DNA from: Alkalispirochaeta americana
Lineage (GTDB): Bacteria > Spirochaetota > Spirochaetia > DSM-27196 > Alkalispirochaetaceae
Direction of reading: 5' to 3'
DNA: 64,000 bases
Assembly (NCBI RefSeq): GCF_900156105.1
Contig: NZ_FTMS01000009.1
Span: 62,001 to 126,000 of the forward strand
Below the pieces are notes generated by a model. The model was not told the DNA's origin. It was given only the letters and a program-made list of their open reading frames with translations, and made no database searches. Position numbers and translations under genes: made by a program. The first letter of the stretch is position 1. The number at the start of each line of letters is the position of its first letter. Below are positions 10,347-48,156 of the stretch, one piece after another.

Positions 10347-12033
10347 CGCCTGCCTCGCCGGTTACCCGCAAGCTCCCTTTCAACTGCGATGCAAAGGCCA
10401 TTACCAGTTCCGTCCCGAGCCCCTGACTCCGGGAATCGGCCGCTCCCAGACCGACTCCGTTGTCGCTTATCAGAAGGATACACTGATCTTCGCGAAGGCC
10501 CATGTGTATCCTGACTGCCGGTTTTCCCAACTTCGACCGTTCCCGGGGAAAAGCGTATTTCAGCGAGTTTGTCACCACTTCGGTCACAATGAAACCACAG
10601 GAGATCGCTTGCTCCAGGGGCAGGGAGAGCCCGGCCGCACTCACCGAGACCTCTGCCGCATCAGAGGTTTCCAGGAGCCCGCTCTGGAGAGAAGCGCACA
10701 ATTCCTGGAGGTAGTTATCCATGGGAACCCGGGAAAAGTCCGACGACTTGTACGAACATTCGTGAACCGCCGCGATCGCATGGATTCGGTTCTCGCACTC
10801 CCGCAAGGCTTCGCGGGCCATCGGATCAACCAGAGTGTCCCCCTGCAGACTGAGTATACTCGAGACGATTTGCAGGTTATTTTTTACGCGATGGTGAACC
10901 TCCTTGAGCAGGAGATCCTTTTCGCGAAGCGCGTCTTGAATGTGCCGATAATCATGGAGGATTCGCTCGTTCATCCCGAGCACAGCCTGCGCAAGAAGAC
11001 CGATCTCATTACGTTGCCGCACCAGAGGAGCAAAGGATTCAGAGATCACGGGGTCGTTCAGATCAATGGCAGCCACGGCCCGGTGAAGACCAAGAATGGG
11101 CGCGGCTATGTAGTTCGCCGAGACCACCGCTGTGGTCACCACTCCCAAAATTGCCACCAAGACAAAGACCATGGAAGTACCCACAATCCGCCAGACCGGA
11201 CCCACAATGTCCGACTGAGGCATAAGATAGGCCACGCTCCAGTTGGGAGAGTCCGGGACAGGAGCGAAAATTGCGTGGCGCCGGATTCCCTGGGGAGTTC
11301 GATAATCGTGGGAGCCTGCCTCGCCAGCAATCATTCGGATACCCAACTCCCTTACCCCCTTCCAGTCGGGGGCATTGAGGGTGTCCATACGCATTACCAG
11401 GGCAGGATCGGGATGCCCGACAACCAGTCCCTGGCCATCAACGATCGCGCCGTACCCTTCTGTGCCGAACTCCATGCTCCGGGTAAGCTGACTGAAGGCT
11501 TGAAGTGTGACCGAAGCGCCGATGATCCCCCTTCTCTCGCCGGAGGGGGTCAGAATCTCCCGAGCCACGGCCACAATCGGATTTCCCGTTCCCAGGCTCA
11601 GAAGACCGTCGCTGACAGTAGCAGATTGCCGGCCCGTGAGGATATCCCGAATGTACTGGCGCTTCAGCAAACTCCCGCTGCGGGCGTCGCTGGTAATAAA
11701 GTTGCCGTCAAGGTCAACAAAAAAAATGTTTTCCTGTTCCGGGTTTATCTCGGCATGATGCTCCTGCAGGTGGGCCGATATCTCTGCCAGCGAACCGGTT
11801 CTGAATACCTCAAAGCGACTCAGTATCCTGACCTCGTTCCGGTGCCCCTCAAGCCAGCGCCCTACCTCGGCACTCCGGGCCTCAACAATCTGGCGGGCCA
11901 TGGCATCAACCGTTTCCCGTTGAAGCCTCCCCGTTTCAAACAGGGAGATCCCTCCGGCTGCAATCAAGAGCAACGTCGACACACCGCCAAAGGCAAGAAC
12001 CATCCTGGCGCGCAACGAGAAAAACCGGTTCAC
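10279..12033 (-). CDS. Cache-domain sensor histidine kinase (HisKA_2 type)
   Basis: 584 residues from a GTG at 12033 with a GGGAGG SD. An N-terminal membrane helix (about 10-30) and a second near 285-310 bracket a periplasmic double-Cache-like sensor region (FFVDLDGNFITSD ... YGAIVDGQGLVVGHPD). A HAMP-like linker leads to the phosphoacceptor motif EVHHRVKNNLQ, diagnostic of HisKA_2 kinases, and a HATPase domain (ISDNGVGLG). It would autophosphorylate in response to an external small molecule, but no response regulator is adjacent. It lies downstream of lysS on the same strand (23 bp) only by position. Its 3' end overlaps the sigma-54 activator gene tail-to-tail. Confidence 0.88.
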   Translation of the reverse strand: MNRFFSLRARMVLAFGGVSTLLLIAAGGISLFETGRLQRETVDAMARQIVEARSAEVGRWLEGHRNEVRILSRFEVFRTGSLAEISAHLQEHHAEINPEQENIFFVDLDGNFITSDARSGSLLKRQYIRDILTGRQSATVSDGLLSLGTGNPIVAVAREILTPSGERRGIIGASVTLQAFSQLTRSMEFGTEGYGAIVDGQGLVVGHPDPALVMRMDTLNAPDWKGVRELGIRMIAGEAGSHDYRTPQGIRRHAIFAPVPDSPNWSVAYLMPQSDIVGPVWRIVGTSMVFVLVAILGVVTTAVVSANYIAAPILGLHRAVAAIDLNDPVISESFAPLVRQRNEIGLLAQAVLGMNERILHDYRHIQDALREKDLLLKEVHHRVKNNLQIVSSILSLQGDTLVDPMAREALRECENRIHAIAAVHECSYKSSDFSRVPMDNYLQELCASLQSGLLETSDAAEVSVSAAGLSLPLEQAISCGFIVTEVVTNSLKYAFPRERSKLGKPAVRIHMGLREDQCILLISDNGVGLGAADSRSQGLGTELVMAFASQLKGSLRVTGEAGVTVEVVFPPDRGASGPGDTRSS

Positions 12034-30308: not shown

Positions 30309-30317
30309 GGCCATGCC

Positions 30318-30475
30318 TTTGTGAGGTGAGGCTCCTGCGTGGATATACGCCGCTGCCCCGAAATGTCGAGAGACGCCAAGGGGTTGAACAGGCAGATTCG
30401 GATTAAGGATCTGCATAACGCGGCTCAAGCGAAACCCTGAGAGGTTTCCAAACGCCCCGCAGTGCTAAAACCGCA
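30318..30475 (+). promoter_or_regulatory. M-box (ykoK-type) magnesium riboswitch aptamer
   Basis: Conserved M-box blocks in order: GTGAGGTGAGGCTCCTGCG, GATATACGCCGCTGCCCCG, AAATGTCGAGAGACGCCAAG, GGGGTTGAACAG, a variable GATTCGG/GGATCTG hairpin, GCATAACGCGGC and finally CGCAGTGCTAAAA. M-boxes fold when Mg2+ is plentiful. The downstream genes are mgtC- and mgtE-type Mg2+ transport genes and a terminator follows, so high Mg2+ should switch the operon off. Confidence 0.9.
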
Positions 30476-30552
30476 ACGAGGAAGGCCTGTCTTGTCGGAA
30501 TCCGGCAAGGCGCTCCGCCTGGTCTCTCCATGAGAGGTCGTGCGCAGCAACC

Positions 30553-42179: not shown

Positions 42180-44285
42180 TCAGGATCGGGCGCGATCTCC
42201 CGGCGGAACCACTCCCGCCTCCTCCAGGGAAGCCATGTCTCTCATGACGGCAGCAGCGCTCTCTATCAGAGGCATTGCCAGGGCAGCTCCTGATCCTTCA
42301 CCAAGGCGCAGGGAGAGATCGACCAGAGGCTTCACCCCGAGAAAACCACACGCCGCCCTGTGGCCCGGCTCCACCGAAGCGTGGGATACAATAATATAGT
42401 CCTTCACTGCCGGTTCGATCATGGCGGCTATTATACCGGCGGCAGTCGAGATAAGCCCGTCCAGAACCACCAGAGTTCGTGCGGAAGCTGCCGCAAGAAG
42501 AGCTCCGGCGATTCCACCGATCTCGAATCCTCCCACAGAACGGAGGATATCAAGACCATCCGGGCCCTCCTCCTGGCCTCCTCGGTGGAGCGCTATAATT
42601 TTTTCCAGAACCTCGATCTTTCGCCGCAGTCCTTCGTCGTCCAGACCGGTACCACGGCCTGCCACCTCCTGGGCAGTTTTCCCCGTGGCCAGGGCGATAA
42701 TCGCCGAGGCCGCCGTGGTGTTGCCGATTCCCATCTCCCCGAATCCTGCCAGATCTATCGGTCCATGACGGTCCATCAGTTCCAAAAAGACCTCCCGGCC
42801 CCGCTTGAGCGATTCCATGGCCTGCCGGGAGGTCATGGCTGGCTGGAGAGCGCTGTTTCTGGTGCCCGGGCCGATCCATTTGTTCATGATTTTCCTGTGA
42901 GAGGCGACTGCTCCCCTTACACCCATGTCGACCACGGTCAGATCAAGGCCATGAAGGCGGGAGAGAACGTTGATAGCGGCCCCGCCCCGGGCGAAGGTAT
43001 CTACCATTCGAGCGGTCACCTCGGGCGGATACGCCGAAACGCCCTCCTCGGCCACACCGTGATCGGCAGCAAAGATCACCATAACTTTCCGTCTGACCTG
43101 GGGGTCCAAGGTATTCTGAACCGCGCAGAGCTGGACCGCCAGATCTTCCAGGTCTCCCAGAGCCCCCAGGGGCTTGGCCTTGCGGTCCATGCGGTGCCGT
43201 GCAGCACTTCGGATCGACGCAGACACGGGGAAGATTTTCTGCCCCTCCAAAATATCCCGCGCGCCCGGGCGTTGCTCCGGCGAACCTTCACAGGATATCG
43301 GGCCAACCGGGGGATCGGAGAAAGAATCCCCACAACGTGCCCGGCCAGGCTGAAGAATGTACTTGAGCCTCGTTCCCTGGTACACATCCCGGGCGAGTCG
43401 CGGAAAATCCTCCGGGGAAATCACCTCTTCCACCAGGAGGGCAAAAAACTCTTCCTCCCGGGCAATAAACGCCACGGCCCGTTCCATATCCCGGGGGTGC
43501 AATCCGTAAGTTCCCGCCAGAGCAAGCTCTTTGTAGTGGATGATATTGAGCAGATTTGTGGAAACTGTCTCGTTCTTTGTTATTCCGCTAAAATGGAGGA
43601 GAATTCCTCCTTTCGCAAGCTTGGTGATCCCCGAACAGAACGCCTGATAGTCGGAACAGGCACACACTACTGCCCCGTACCGGCTATTCTGCAGCTCCTT
43701 TCGCACCGGCACCGCAGGAAACCGTCGGGCCACCAGATCTATCTTTTCCTGGCTTCGTTCCAGAATCACCGCTGGAATACCTCGATCCCGAGCCAGGCGC
43801 CAGGCCATGAGACCCAGCGTTCCCGCACCGTAGACCAGCACGCTTCGCTCATCCCCCCTCAGATTATCAAAGGCGTGGAAGATACACCCCAGAGGTTCTG
43901 CAAACGTATAGAGCTCGGGATGCTCCGTGGGAGGAACCGGGATCGTGATAAACGATGACCCCCGGGGAGGGTCAAGAGAGGATGCGAAAGCACCGTCGAA
44001 GTGGAACCCCATGATCCTGATCGTCCGGCACCGCTGCTCCTTTCCCTGACGGCAGTCCCGGCAGTTGCCGCAGGCGATACCCGGCCAAAGTACAAAGCGT
44101 TGCCCCCCTTCCCGGTCCCGCACCACCGCTTCGTGGCCTGGCACGCGAGGCAGGTGAAGATCACGCTGTCCCTCGAGGTAGAGTTTTCCATCGGTACGGC
44201 AAACACCGCAGTACTCCACTTCCAGGGCACCCTGAGGGCACTCGTCCATCTCGGCCTGACCGATCCCCGTCATGACAAGTCTCAT
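42180..44285 (-). CDS. Fusion of a zinc-dependent (MDR) alcohol dehydrogenase with CobT
   Basis: 701 residues in one uninterrupted frame. Residues 1-315 are a medium-chain dehydrogenase: catalytic-zinc site CGVC (Cys26/29) and GHE (51-52), structural-zinc cysteines at about 72, 75, 78 and 86 (ACGNCRDCRQG), and NAD-binding GAGTLG (about 153). Residues 320-701 are CobT, which moves phosphoribose from nicotinate mononucleotide to the lower-ligand base of cobamides: KPLGALGDLEDLAVQL, FAADHGVAEEGVSAYP, ARGGAAINVLSR, GNTTAASA, ASVEPGHRAA and catalytic Glu663 in GEGSG. ATGA overlap with the upstream TrpD-like gene shows coupling. The fusion suggests that the dehydrogenase works on the ligand base or its alcohol precursor, which is inference. 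Confidence 0.87.
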   Translation of the reverse strand: MRLVMTGIGQAEMDECPQGALEVEYCGVCRTDGKLYLEGQRDLHLPRVPGHEAVVRDREGGQRFVLWPGIACGNCRDCRQGKEQRCRTIRIMGFHFDGAFASSLDPPRGSSFITIPVPPTEHPELYTFAEPLGCIFHAFDNLRGDERSVLVYGAGTLGLMAWRLARDRGIPAVILERSQEKIDLVARRFPAVPVRKELQNSRYGAVVCACSDYQAFCSGITKLAKGGILLHFSGITKNETVSTNLLNIIHYKELALAGTYGLHPRDMERAVAFIAREEEFFALLVEEVISPEDFPRLARDVYQGTRLKYILQPGRARCGDSFSDPPVGPISCEGSPEQRPGARDILEGQKIFPVSASIRSAARHRMDRKAKPLGALGDLEDLAVQLCAVQNTLDPQVRRKVMVIFAADHGVAEEGVSAYPPEVTARMVDTFARGGAAINVLSRLHGLDLTVVDMGVRGAVASHRKIMNKWIGPGTRNSALQPAMTSRQAMESLKRGREVFLELMDRHGPIDLAGFGEMGIGNTTAASAIIALATGKTAQEVAGRGTGLDDEGLRRKIEVLEKIIALHRGGQEEGPDGLDILRSVGGFEIGGIAGALLAAASARTLVVLDGLISTAAGIIAAMIEPAVKDYIIVSHASVEPGHRAACGFLGVKPLVDLSLRLGEGSGAALAMPLIESAAAVMRDMASLEEAGVVPPGDRARS

Positions 44286-45520
44286 GGTCTTTCTCCCGAA
44301 GCAAGGCCTGCCAAGGTGCGAAGTCTTCGGAGTCTGGCAGCACCCCTCTGAGGATCGCTGTTCTGGGCGCGGACCCAGGAATCAAGCCGATCGAAGGCAG
44401 CTCCGGACTCGATCGCCTCCCGGGCCAGTATGACTCCTTTCGAAAGATCCCGGGCTTTTCCGGCAACGTAGAGAAGGCACGAGGCGTTCAGAAGAACTGC
44501 TTCAATTCTGGCTGAAACATCGACTCCCAGAATGGTTCGAACAAAGCGGCCCGCCTCCTGGGAAAGGTCCCCCGAGGGAGCAATCTCCCGGGGGTCGTGC
44601 ACGGCCAGGCCAGCATCTCCGGGCCGAAAGGAATAGACCTTCAGGGGGCCCTGGTCACTGAACTCGGCACACCAGGTTGTTCCACACACCGAGGCCTCGT
44701 CCATGCCGTGAAAAGAGTTATCGATTTCTCCGTATAGAACCATCCCCCGGTGATATCCGATTTGCCGCATCAGCTCGGCCACGGGTTCCACCAGTTCCCG
44801 GGCGTAGACACCGCGCACCCCGATTTTCGGCATCACGGGGTTACAGAGGGACGCCGCAATGTTCAGGCAAGAACCGAAGGAAATTTGCGAGAGAATCCTC
44901 CCCAGCGCCTGGGGGTGTATGGCGGGGCTCATTCCGTTAAAGAGGCCAATGCCGGCTGTGGTGACACTACGGAGGACCATCGAAACAGGCACATCGGGAT
45001 CGACCCCCAAGGCTTCGGCGATATCTACCGTTCCGCAACGGGAGGTAATGGACCGCGCGCCGTGGCGGGCCAGAGAAACTCCACAGGCGGCAGCCACTAC
45101 TGAGGCGGCCGTACTGATGTTGAACGTCTTGAAGGAATCCATTCCCGTACCGCAGTTCTCTACCACCTTCAGGCTGAGGAAATGCTGCTGAACGTCAGGA
45201 GGCTCTTTCTCCAGGGGCTTTACCGTATCCAGTTCGTAGATAACCTGCCAGGCCGCCGCCAACTCCTGCAAAGCCTCTCCCTTGGCCGCCAGGGCACCAA
45301 GAAAAGCGCCTTGATGCATCTCGGTCACCCGGGAAGAGAGGACTTCCCGAAAGGCCTCCCGGGCCGTCCCGAAGTCCAGATCTTCCCGGCCGATCAACCG
45401 GGAGACGAGCGCTCCAAAGGCCCGGTCTCCCATGGGTGCACCCTCCAGACCCTCGAGACCCTCCGACATCTTGATTACATCTGTCATGGCCGACTCCATC
45501 GGCCCTTCTATCTTCTCCAT
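44282..45520 (-). CDS. TrpD-like phosphoribosyltransferase with altered acceptor site
   Basis: 412 residues from the ATG at 45520, chosen because GGAGAA lies 6 nt upstream. The fold of anthranilate phosphoribosyltransferase is clear: PRPP loop CGTGMDSFKTFNIST (124-137; TrpD has GTGGD), RHGARSITSRCG (152-163), and the region GVYARELVEP. The anthranilate-binding arginine of TrpD (in PVRR or PVRQ) aligns with Leu210, and the following GPL of NxLGPL is AAS. This argues against anthranilate as acceptor. No other trp gene is near. It is translationally coupled to the MDR-CobT fusion, so it may make a phosphoribosylated or other precursor for that enzyme. An EGL repeat near residue 20 comes from a tandem 9-bp unit. 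Confidence 0.82.
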   Translation of the reverse strand: MEKIEGPMESAMTDVIKMSEGLEGLEGAPMGDRAFGALVSRLIGREDLDFGTAREAFREVLSSRVTEMHQGAFLGALAAKGEALQELAAAWQVIYELDTVKPLEKEPPDVQQHFLSLKVVENCGTGMDSFKTFNISTAASVVAAACGVSLARHGARSITSRCGTVDIAEALGVDPDVPVSMVLRSVTTAGIGLFNGMSPAIHPQALGRILSQISFGSCLNIAASLCNPVMPKIGVRGVYARELVEPVAELMRQIGYHRGMVLYGEIDNSFHGMDEASVCGTTWCAEFSDQGPLKVYSFRPGDAGLAVHDPREIAPSGDLSQEAGRFVRTILGVDVSARIEAVLLNASCLLYVAGKARDLSKGVILAREAIESGAAFDRLDSWVRAQNSDPQRGAARLRRLRTLAGLASGERP

Positions 45521-45657: not shown

Positions 45658-48156
45658 ATGAAACAGGTTGCACCCACCCTGGCCCTTCTTCTGGGGCTGA
45701 CAGTTTTTTTCCCCTGGGTGGCCCCGGCATCCCCGGGCTATTCTCTCTATAATCCAGCCTGGGGCGGGCCAGCCCTTCAGGATGAACTCTTTACGCCACT
45801 GATAAATCCCGCTGCCCTGGCACAGGGCAAGGCCAGCGGATTCGGCTTCGCCCTGCCCCTGAACGAGAATGATGCTCCGGGGCAGAAAGACTTCGGAGAA
45901 GAGTACCACCTGCTTCTGAATGCGTCCTTCGGAGGTTATGCCCTGGGCTACCAGGATTCAACCTTTACCCATCTAATCTCGGGAGCCCTCCCTCTGGGGC
46001 CCTACCTCTCTCTGGGCTATTCCTGGTCCTGGGAAGAGTCCTCGTTCACCGACGGTCATTACCAGGCAGGGATGCTCCTGCGCCCGGGCAAGGCCCTCTC
46101 GCTGGGTGCGGTCTACCGGGATCTCCCCGATGATCCACTTCTGGAAGCGGGGCTGGGGTTCCGCCCTCTCTGGTTCAACGATCACTGGGGTACACGCCTT
46201 ACCCTGGATGGGAATATCCGGTGGATTCCGGACCAGAGTGACTTTGACGTCTCAACAGCATCCATCACGGTGGAGGTTCTTGACGGTCTGCGGCTCTCGG
46301 CCGGTTACGACCACCAGGAAGAGACCCTTTCGCTGGGGGCCCGCTTCAACCTTCGCCAAAGCGAGACCGGAACCTCTGCTGCCGTGAAGAACTCCGGGAA
46401 GGAACTCTCGAACAGTATGGGTTACGGTTTCTTTCGCGCAACCCGGCGCCACACCGTCCTGGAGAGAAGGGGTTCCGAGGTGATCGAATACGACCGAACA
46501 GGCACAATCACTTCCCATCCCCGGGTCCACCGTTTCTCCCAGCCCCATCTGCCTCTGGAGACTCTCATAAACGATCTTGAACGGTTCCGGGATGATCCTT
46601 CCGTGGGGGCAATTCTTGTGAACGGCACCTATCTTCAGGCTCCTCTGGCCTATGTGAGCGAATTGCTGGAGGCGTTCAACCGACTGCGCCTCCAGGGCAC
46701 GCAGATTTTCTTCTACTTTGACTGGGCCGATCCCGTGGCCTATCTTCTTGCTGCGGCAGTGTCGGATCAGGTCTTTTTTCACCCCACGGCAGTGCTGGAT
46801 CTGCGAGGTTTTGCCTACAGCGGCGTCTACCTGGGACAGTTTTTGCAAAATTACGGCATCCAGATTTACAACTATCGCAGTCACGAGCACAAAACAGCCG
46901 GAGATAGCCTCAGCGAAGCGGCCATGACAGAAGCAGAACGCGAGGGTTGGGAAATTCTCCTGGAAGACCTGGCAGATATGTACAACGAACTTCTGGCGGC
47001 GGCACGAAAACCACACCTTCCGAAGGATGCGGAGGAAATTGTTGCGGACGGCCCCTATCTCACGGCTCAGGGAGCCCTCGAGGCGGGATTGATCGACGGG
47101 ATACTCTATCCCGACCAATTGCAGGAAACAATTTTTCTGGCCGCGCCGGGAACAGAGCGATGGCGAAAGCCGGACAGAACTCGCCGCCCCCCCCTGGCTT
47201 GGGGCCCAGAGGGCGGTGCTCTTATCCAGGTCATTCACGGTGTGGGGCCTATCATTCCGGGAGAGGCAATTGCGGGAGAGTCCATCGGAGGAGAATCATT
47301 CTCCCGGGCGATTCGTGAGGCCCGGGAGAACCCTTTTGTTCAGGGTATTATTCTCCGCATTGAGACAGGAGGGGGCGCGATTACTGCCTCGGATCAAATT
47401 GCCCGGGAGGTTTCCCTGGCCCGTGCCGCAGGAAAGCCCGTGGTGGTATCCATGGGAAGCATTGCCGCCTCGGGGGGCTATTACATCTCGGCCCCGGCAT
47501 CGCATATCGTGGCGAACCCCGCTACCATCACCGGATCTATCGGCGTTGTGGCGATACAAGCCGACATGGAAGCTCTCCTGGAGCGCTTTGCAATTGGAAC
47601 CGGCACGGTACGTACTGCTCCAAAGGCTGATTTCGGTTCGATCCTGCGGGCTCCCTCACCGGAGGAGCAAGACCTCTGGCGGGCCTACATCGACGACGGC
47701 TACCAACGCTTTATCGATATTGTAGCTGATTCGCGCCCCCTTTCACGGGAGGAGGTTCACCAGGTTGCCCAAGGAAAAGTCTGGACGGGACGCCAGGCTC
47801 TGGATCAAGGGTTGGTCGATTCCCTGGGGGGGCTCTCCCAGGCGGAGCGGGTCATGGCCCAACTTCTGGACTCGTCCCTGCCCCTGCGGAGCATTCACAC
47901 CGTCCCGGGAAACACCCGGTTTGATCTCAACCAGGCCCTGGGCGTCGCCGGAGGAGGCGGGTCCTCCAGTCTTGGACGAAACAGCCTGGCAGGGTTGAGC
48001 CCGGCACGCATACCACCAGTCCGACTGGGACCTGGCCGCCCGCTCTCGAGAGAGCTGGCCGAGACACTGGCGGAGCTGCAATTACTGGCAGCCCTGGAGG
48101 GGGCACCCCTGTATCTCATGCCCTACGGTGTGCCAGGGGTCACATCACCGCGCTAG
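45658..48156 (+). CDS. SppA-type S49 protease with an N-terminal outer-membrane-like barrel
   Basis: 832 residues. A signal peptide (1-25) is followed by about 210 residues of alternating amphipathic strands (SFGGYALGYQDSTFT, LSLGYSWSWEESSF, LDGLRLSAGYD) resembling an outer-membrane or PorV-like barrel. From about 285 two S49 domains follow. The catalytic lysine is Lys412 (YRSHEHKTAG) and the nucleophile Ser605 (MGSIAASGGYYIS), 193 residues apart, as in E. coli SppA (200). It would cleave signal peptides or misfolded envelope proteins, perhaps at the outer membrane instead of the inner. A GGGS-like linker and about 70-residue tail end it. An eight-C tract lies at about 47187-47194. No SD; GATAAT ends 8 nt before the ATG. 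Confidence 0.85.
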   Translation: MKQVAPTLALLLGLTVFFPWVAPASPGYSLYNPAWGGPALQDELFTPLINPAALAQGKASGFGFALPLNENDAPGQKDFGEEYHLLLNASFGGYALGYQDSTFTHLISGALPLGPYLSLGYSWSWEESSFTDGHYQAGMLLRPGKALSLGAVYRDLPDDPLLEAGLGFRPLWFNDHWGTRLTLDGNIRWIPDQSDFDVSTASITVEVLDGLRLSAGYDHQEETLSLGARFNLRQSETGTSAAVKNSGKELSNSMGYGFFRATRRHTVLERRGSEVIEYDRTGTITSHPRVHRFSQPHLPLETLINDLERFRDDPSVGAILVNGTYLQAPLAYVSELLEAFNRLRLQGTQIFFYFDWADPVAYLLAAAVSDQVFFHPTAVLDLRGFAYSGVYLGQFLQNYGIQIYNYRSHEHKTAGDSLSEAAMTEAEREGWEILLEDLADMYNELLAAARKPHLPKDAEEIVADGPYLTAQGALEAGLIDGILYPDQLQETIFLAAPGTERWRKPDRTRRPPLAWGPEGGALIQVIHGVGPIIPGEAIAGESIGGESFSRAIREARENPFVQGIILRIETGGGAITASDQIAREVSLARAAGKPVVVSMGSIAASGGYYISAPASHIVANPATITGSIGVVAIQADMEALLERFAIGTGTVRTAPKADFGSILRAPSPEEQDLWRAYIDDGYQRFIDIVADSRPLSREEVHQVAQGKVWTGRQALDQGLVDSLGGLSQAERVMAQLLDSSLPLRSIHTVPGNTRFDLNQALGVAGGGGSSSLGRNSLAGLSPARIPPVRLGPGRPLSRELAETLAELQLLAALEGAPLYLMPYGVPGVTSPR

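Follow-up and report, generated by a model that had tools for sequence, protein, structure and literature searches.

Genes at the locus

The window, that is, the whole stretch of 64,000 nucleotides that was analyzed, lies in contig C9 of the Alkalispirochaeta americana genome (G000; 3.3 Mb, 95.6% complete). It harbors an intact two-gene operon (42180-45520, minus strand), in which a TrpD-like gene comes first and is followed by a gene fusing a zinc alcohol dehydrogenase-type (MDR) domain to CobT. The original prediction had described one MDR-CobT frame with its zinc cysteines and catalytic glutamate, preceded by a TrpD-like gene with an ATGA overlap. Profile searches confirmed the frame, the residues were invariant in relatives, and the overlap was found at 44282-44285. 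The start of the TrpD-like gene was placed at the ATG at 45520, while the longest mechanical open reading frame would begin at 45730. The features of the operon are as follows.

42180-44285, minus strand: MDR-CobT fusion gene, 701 amino acids, a single 701-codon frame with homologous fusions elsewhere
42180-43235, minus strand: CobT (NaMN:base phosphoribosyltransferase) domain, residues 351-701; PF02277 409 bits, TIGR03160 above cut-off
42297-42299, minus strand: predicted catalytic Glu663 of CobT in RLGEGSGA, from sequence; invariant in the aligned fusions
43236-43349, minus strand: inter-domain linker, residues 313-350; dN/dS 0.69, 24% identity to A. alkalica
43350-44285, minus strand: MDR domain, residues 1-312; ADH_N Pfam match, zinc ligands, GxGxxG, dN/dS 0.08
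44028-44072, minus strand: structural-zinc cysteine lobe C72-x2-C75-x2-C78-x7-C86; invariant in five MDR homologues
44282-45520, minus strand: TrpD-like phosphoribosyltransferase, 412 amino acids; ATGA overlap, clade apart from canonical TrpD
44696-44701, minus strand: Asp-Glu pair of the TrpD-like protein, presumed to bind Mg-PRPP; invariant in the TrpD-like and canonical sets
44891-44893, minus strand: Leu of the TrpD-like protein at the position of M. tuberculosis TrpD Arg193 (anthranilate carboxylate), by alignment (PMC9835598, PMC5537072)
45056-45058, minus strand: Ala of the TrpD-like protein at the position of M. tuberculosis TrpD Asn138 (anthranilate contact), by alignment (PMC9835598)
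45137-45151, minus strand: GTGMD motif of the TrpD-like protein (GTGGD in canonical TrpD)

The neighborhood of the operon is syntenic in Alkalispirochaeta alkalica DSM 8900 (G006; further G numbers denote the other spirochaete genomes compared). In agreement with the original prediction, no cob gene other than the fused cobT was found in the examined part of the window. The cobS gene of A. americana is located on a different contig, C3, where it adjoins HydF and two radical-SAM genes resembling the hydrogenase maturases HydE/HydG (this gene group spans L117 9601-15318, minus strand). Elsewhere in the window, an ordinary M-box magnesium riboswitch (30311-30490, plus strand) precedes MgtC-like and MgtE-like genes.

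The MDR-CobT fusion protein

Pfam and NCBIfam searches of the fusion identified ADH_N (residues 21-102), a weak NAD-binding domain up to about residue 294 and a complete CobT domain (residues 353-692), which gave 409 bits with PF02277 and a full-length match to TIGR03160 (408.6 bits, cut-off 319.3). Cys29 in CRTD, the GHE motif, C72/C75/C78/C86 and the Glu of the CobT motif RLGEGSGA are all present in the fusion and invariant in its relatives. Conservation in the MDR domain comprises C29, H51-E52, E130, C72/75/78/86 and G153xG155xxG158, the copy of G080 deviating with GEE. Glu176, which follows the second strand of this domain, is likewise invariant, suggesting that NAD may be the cofactor. 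The domain fits no named dehydrogenase equivalog, for instance threonine dehydrogenase, as the best named profiles scored 59-64 bits against cut-offs of 328-458, and its closest relative of solved structure is an uncharacterised zinc dehydrogenase.

Within CobT, E663 (GEG motif) and E517 (GEMG) are both invariant in the fusions; the catalytic role of Glu663 is one that we carry over from Salmonella CobT. The pocket motifs are ordinary, and no clear pocket change was seen among the residues common to the clade of fused CobTs, so that CobT itself gives no hint of an unusual ligand. In Alkalispirochaeta the fused CobT is the sole CobT of the genome and hence no extra specialised copy; in G163 the fused CobT occurs alongside a second, standalone one.

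Comparison of A. americana with A. alkalica gave dN/dS values of 0.08 for MDR, 0.12 for CobT, 0.16 for the TrpD-like protein and 0.69 for the linker. The MDR and CobT domains are under purifying selection and the linker is not, so that the fusion consists of two domains under constraint joined by a linker that is free to vary. The AlphaFold models had too little confidence to be of use (mean pLDDT 63.7 for the TrpD-like protein and 52.3 for the fusion), the underlying alignments being shallow.

Distribution of the fusion and of the TrpD-like/MDR pair

The fusion of A. alkalica is 79% identical to that of A. americana, and two more fusions are present in other, distant families, which shows that the fusion is no sequencing artefact. 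The two Alkalispirochaeta species belong to family f1, and the other fusions were found in G151 (f54) and G163 (f73). A TrpD-like gene lies upstream of every fusion, in G151 broken across contig ends, and in G205 the MDR gene is unfused. A scan of genome contigs recovered the fusion in A. alkalica only, the one further genome of the genus, among those searched, that carries it. A tblastn search of plasmids returned only canonical TrpD (at most 36% identity) and unfused CobT, with no fusion. An apparent CobT frame of 830 residues in G243 was rejected, as it seems to be a spurious frame of the kind that GC-rich sequence leaves open.

A search of genomes for the MDR-CobT architecture and its co-occurrence with TrpD-like proteins had been suggested with the original prediction; it yielded the fusion in the three families named and both subfamilies in exactly the same five genomes of a sample of 393 spirochaetes. 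The MDR subfamily scored at least 546 bits in G000, G006, G151, G163 and G205 (next best 162). The TrpD-like subfamily scored at least 504 bits in G000, G006, G163 and G205 and in G151 its sequence is divided between the ends of two contigs; the next-best TrpD reached 217 bits. CobT is found in all five genomes and in 112 of the 393 overall; the chance of this for five random genomes is about 0.002, or about 0.02 if counted by the three families.

Outside this sample, G080 carries a pair (MDR 36% and TrpD-like 43% identity). Its MDR homologue (L033 9600-10546, minus strand) contains one in-frame TAA, and GEE replaces GHE; decay, assembly error or divergence are possible reasons. As no CobT lies beside the pair in G205 and G080, the essential link does not consist in the fusion. 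In a CobT tree, the fused CobTs and the standalone CobT of G090, which adjoins an apparent end of cobS, formed one clade (support 100/99); the CobTs of G205 and G080 and the additional copy of G163 fell outside it. Between the TrpD-like and MDR genes of G151, G163 and G205, a protein of 68-71 residues with a KASV motif is conserved (L105 10865-11071; L106 about 10470-10679; L108 about 543-758); the one copy searched had no Pfam match.

Cobalamin riboswitches and pathway context

In G205, G151 and G163 the operon is immediately preceded by a cobalamin riboswitch (Rfam RF00174), and in G080 one immediately precedes MDR. Since the operons of G205 and G080 contain no CobT, the pair itself appears to be tied to cobamide metabolism or status. 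Searches of the window and of A. alkalica gave no RF00174 match. Two more cobalamin riboswitches of G163 (L106 4342-4672 and 16345-16635) precede a TonB-receptor-like gene and the standalone cobT. The coupling between the TrpD-like gene and the MDR-CobT gene claimed by the original prediction has held up: it is conserved in three families, co-inherited, and has a riboswitch upstream in four genomes.

The pathway census, carried out by single-family searches, detected CobS and CobT in all six genomes with the pair, and in none of six genus or family genomes that do not carry it (G001-G005, G007). CbiC was found in G080, G151, G163 and G205 and not in G000 and G006. As the pair persists in Alkalispirochaeta without CbiC, a marker of the ring synthesis that these genomes appear to lack, a role in ring synthesis is unlikely and one in base attachment is favored. 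BluB (TIGR02476) was not found in G000, G006, G151, G163 and G205, and the ThiC family (PF01964) was not found in G000, G006 and G080; the ThiC-family enzymes of G151, G163 and G205 score as ThiC and not as BzaB. Alkalispirochaeta, with CobS and CobT and with no CbiC, BluB or ThiC/Bza homologue found, thus points to the base-attachment branch, and the nucleotide-loop/base-attachment branch is fairly well supported as the place of the module.

Within this branch, MDR could make the nucleotide-loop linker, aminopropanol or another, in the manner of threonine dehydrogenase, whose profiles are among the top MDR matches. This role is weakened by a CobD-like aminotransferase and a CbiB-like gene located beside cobS in G163 and G080, and it leaves the TrpD-like partner unexplained, so that we regard it as quite improbable. 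A job outside lower-ligand chemistry, for example in bypassing a reaction that needs B12 or in another B12-repressed pathway, would make the CobT fusion incidental. B12-independent bypass enzymes can also be under cobalamin riboswitch control, and the pair of G080 is surrounded by URO-D family and sugar-type genes. Against this stand the retention of the fusion in three families with conserved gene order, the purifying selection on both domains, and the presence of CobT and CobS in all genomes with the pair; we consider such a job unlikely.

Active site and ancestry of the TrpD-like protein

The TrpD-like protein scored 217.6 with TIGR01245 (cut-off 199.05). The six TrpD-like proteins were compared with 53 spirochaete sequences (52 canonical TrpDs and one further TrpD-like copy), residue numbers being transferred from M. 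tuberculosis TrpD through the alignment. All six retain GTG-D, NxS, the His and the Asp-Glu pair, which we take to bind Mg-PRPP. They read GTGMD, with Met for the second Gly of GTGGD, carry a two-residue insertion and have Arg in place of a Lys, except one that keeps Lys. Asn138 is replaced by Ala or Ser and Arg193 by Leu; Arg193 is present in 52 of the 53 comparison sequences, the exception being the further TrpD-like copy. In M. tuberculosis TrpD, Arg193 and Asn138 hold the carboxylate of anthranilate (PMC9835598; PMC5537072 for Arg193). Retention of the PRPP/Mg residues and loss of the anthranilate-binding Arg and Asn suggest a PRPP-dependent enzyme that uses an acceptor other than anthranilate.

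By its score above the TrpD cut-off, the protein could be taken for an ordinary tryptophan enzyme that lies beside cobT by chance. However, canonical TrpDs, mostly of TrpG-fused length, are encoded elsewhere in G000, G006, G151, G163 and G205, and the six TrpD-like proteins form a single clade apart from them (SH-aLRT 100). Together with the lost anthranilate residues, the conserved linkage and the riboswitch, this makes a tryptophan enzyme highly improbable.

The retained PRPP/Mg residues and the tight linkage to CobT would also fit a supply of the phosphoribosyl donor of CobT (NaMN or an equivalent beta-ribotide) and not of the base, the TrpD-like enzyme combining a pyridine with PRPP to give the donor, for instance so as to recycle the product released by CobT. 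Nicotinate, however, has a carboxylate, and the carboxylate-binding Arg is lost; the dehydrogenase would be left without a role, and NaMN is normally a product of NAD synthesis. We hold donor supply to be rather improbable.

Comparison with known systems and proposed function

In line with the original prediction, which knew of no described system with this gene set, no MDR-CobT or TrpD-cobamide system was found in the open-licence literature. The nearest likeness is the BluB-CobT2 fusion of Propionibacterium freudenreichii, in which CobT is also fused to an oxidoreductase; this partner produces DMB as the base and channels it on to its CobT (PMC4657239). Here a zinc MDR takes the place of BluB, which destroys a flavin, and there is a TrpD-like enzyme in addition. 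Among the spirochaetes, G118, G185, G195, G249, G274 and G282 have BluB and CobT matches side by side within a single open frame (583-672 codons), apparent BluB-CobT fusions in several families.

With TrpD, the TrpD-like protein shares the fold family, the PRPP/Mg residues and the score above the TIGR01245 cut-off, and it differs in GTGMD, Ala/Ser at 138, Leu at 193, the insertion, its status as a second copy and its B12-linked context. The fusion has the complete domain and catalytic motifs of CobT (EC 2.4.2.21), the difference being its N-terminal MDR domain. ArsAB is defined by a tandem pair of CobT homologues, whereas G000, G006 and G151 have a single CobT; ArsA also matches the CobT profile at the level of Salmonella CobT. 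The anaerobic bza pathway likewise consists of dedicated lower-ligand genes in anaerobes (background knowledge and PMC6461909), but the genomes with the pair have no BzaB-like ThiC homologue and the chemistry would differ.

By analogy with BluB-CobT2 and from the context evidence, we consider it somewhat better than an even call that the TrpD-like protein and MDR form a cobalamin-controlled module that provides CobT with the lower-ligand base or its ribotide, or processes either of them for it. The TrpD-like enzyme would ribosylate, with PRPP, an acceptor that lacks the carboxylate of anthranilate; the NAD-dependent MDR would oxidise or reduce a hydroxyl or carbonyl of that product or its precursor; the fusion would hand the product to CobT, and CobT would form the alpha-ribotide for CobS. 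We count in favor of this module the exact co-inheritance, the riboswitch in four genomes, the fusion in three families, the missing CbiC in Alkalispirochaeta, BluB and Bza not being found where searched, the lost anthranilate residues and the BluB-CobT2 precedent. Counted against it are the riboswitch not found in Alkalispirochaeta, the ordinary CobT pocket, the second CobT of G163, the in-frame stop and GEE in the MDR of G080 and the restriction to four lineages; in organisms that lack base genes, adenine or bases taken up from outside may also simply suffice. We rank the supply of the donor, a B12-regulated job unrelated to the lower ligand and the synthesis of the linker as less likely alternatives. 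Of the dedicated lower-ligand pathway originally predicted, the coupling, the riboswitch and BluB/Bza not being found where searched lend support, while the unusual base made via an alcohol or aldehyde did not gain any.

BluB requires oxygen. A bolder form of the base/ribotide module, which we put forward only tentatively and hold to be doubtful, would be a third, oxygen-independent route to the lower ligand, distinct from BluB and Bza, in which the repurposed TrpD would act with PRPP on an aromatic amine, the product would be transformed by the zinc dehydrogenase, and the base or ribotide so formed would be channelled to CobT.

In one survey, a lower-ligand prediction was possible for just 58% of the organisms predicted to produce cobamides (PMC6461909). 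The others may rely on purines or on different bases. A module under cobalamin control that is attached to CobT, and that occurs in genomes where neither BluB nor Bza was detected, is a concrete and testable candidate for the missing base chemistry, and with it a descendant of TrpD has apparently been recruited out of tryptophan synthesis.
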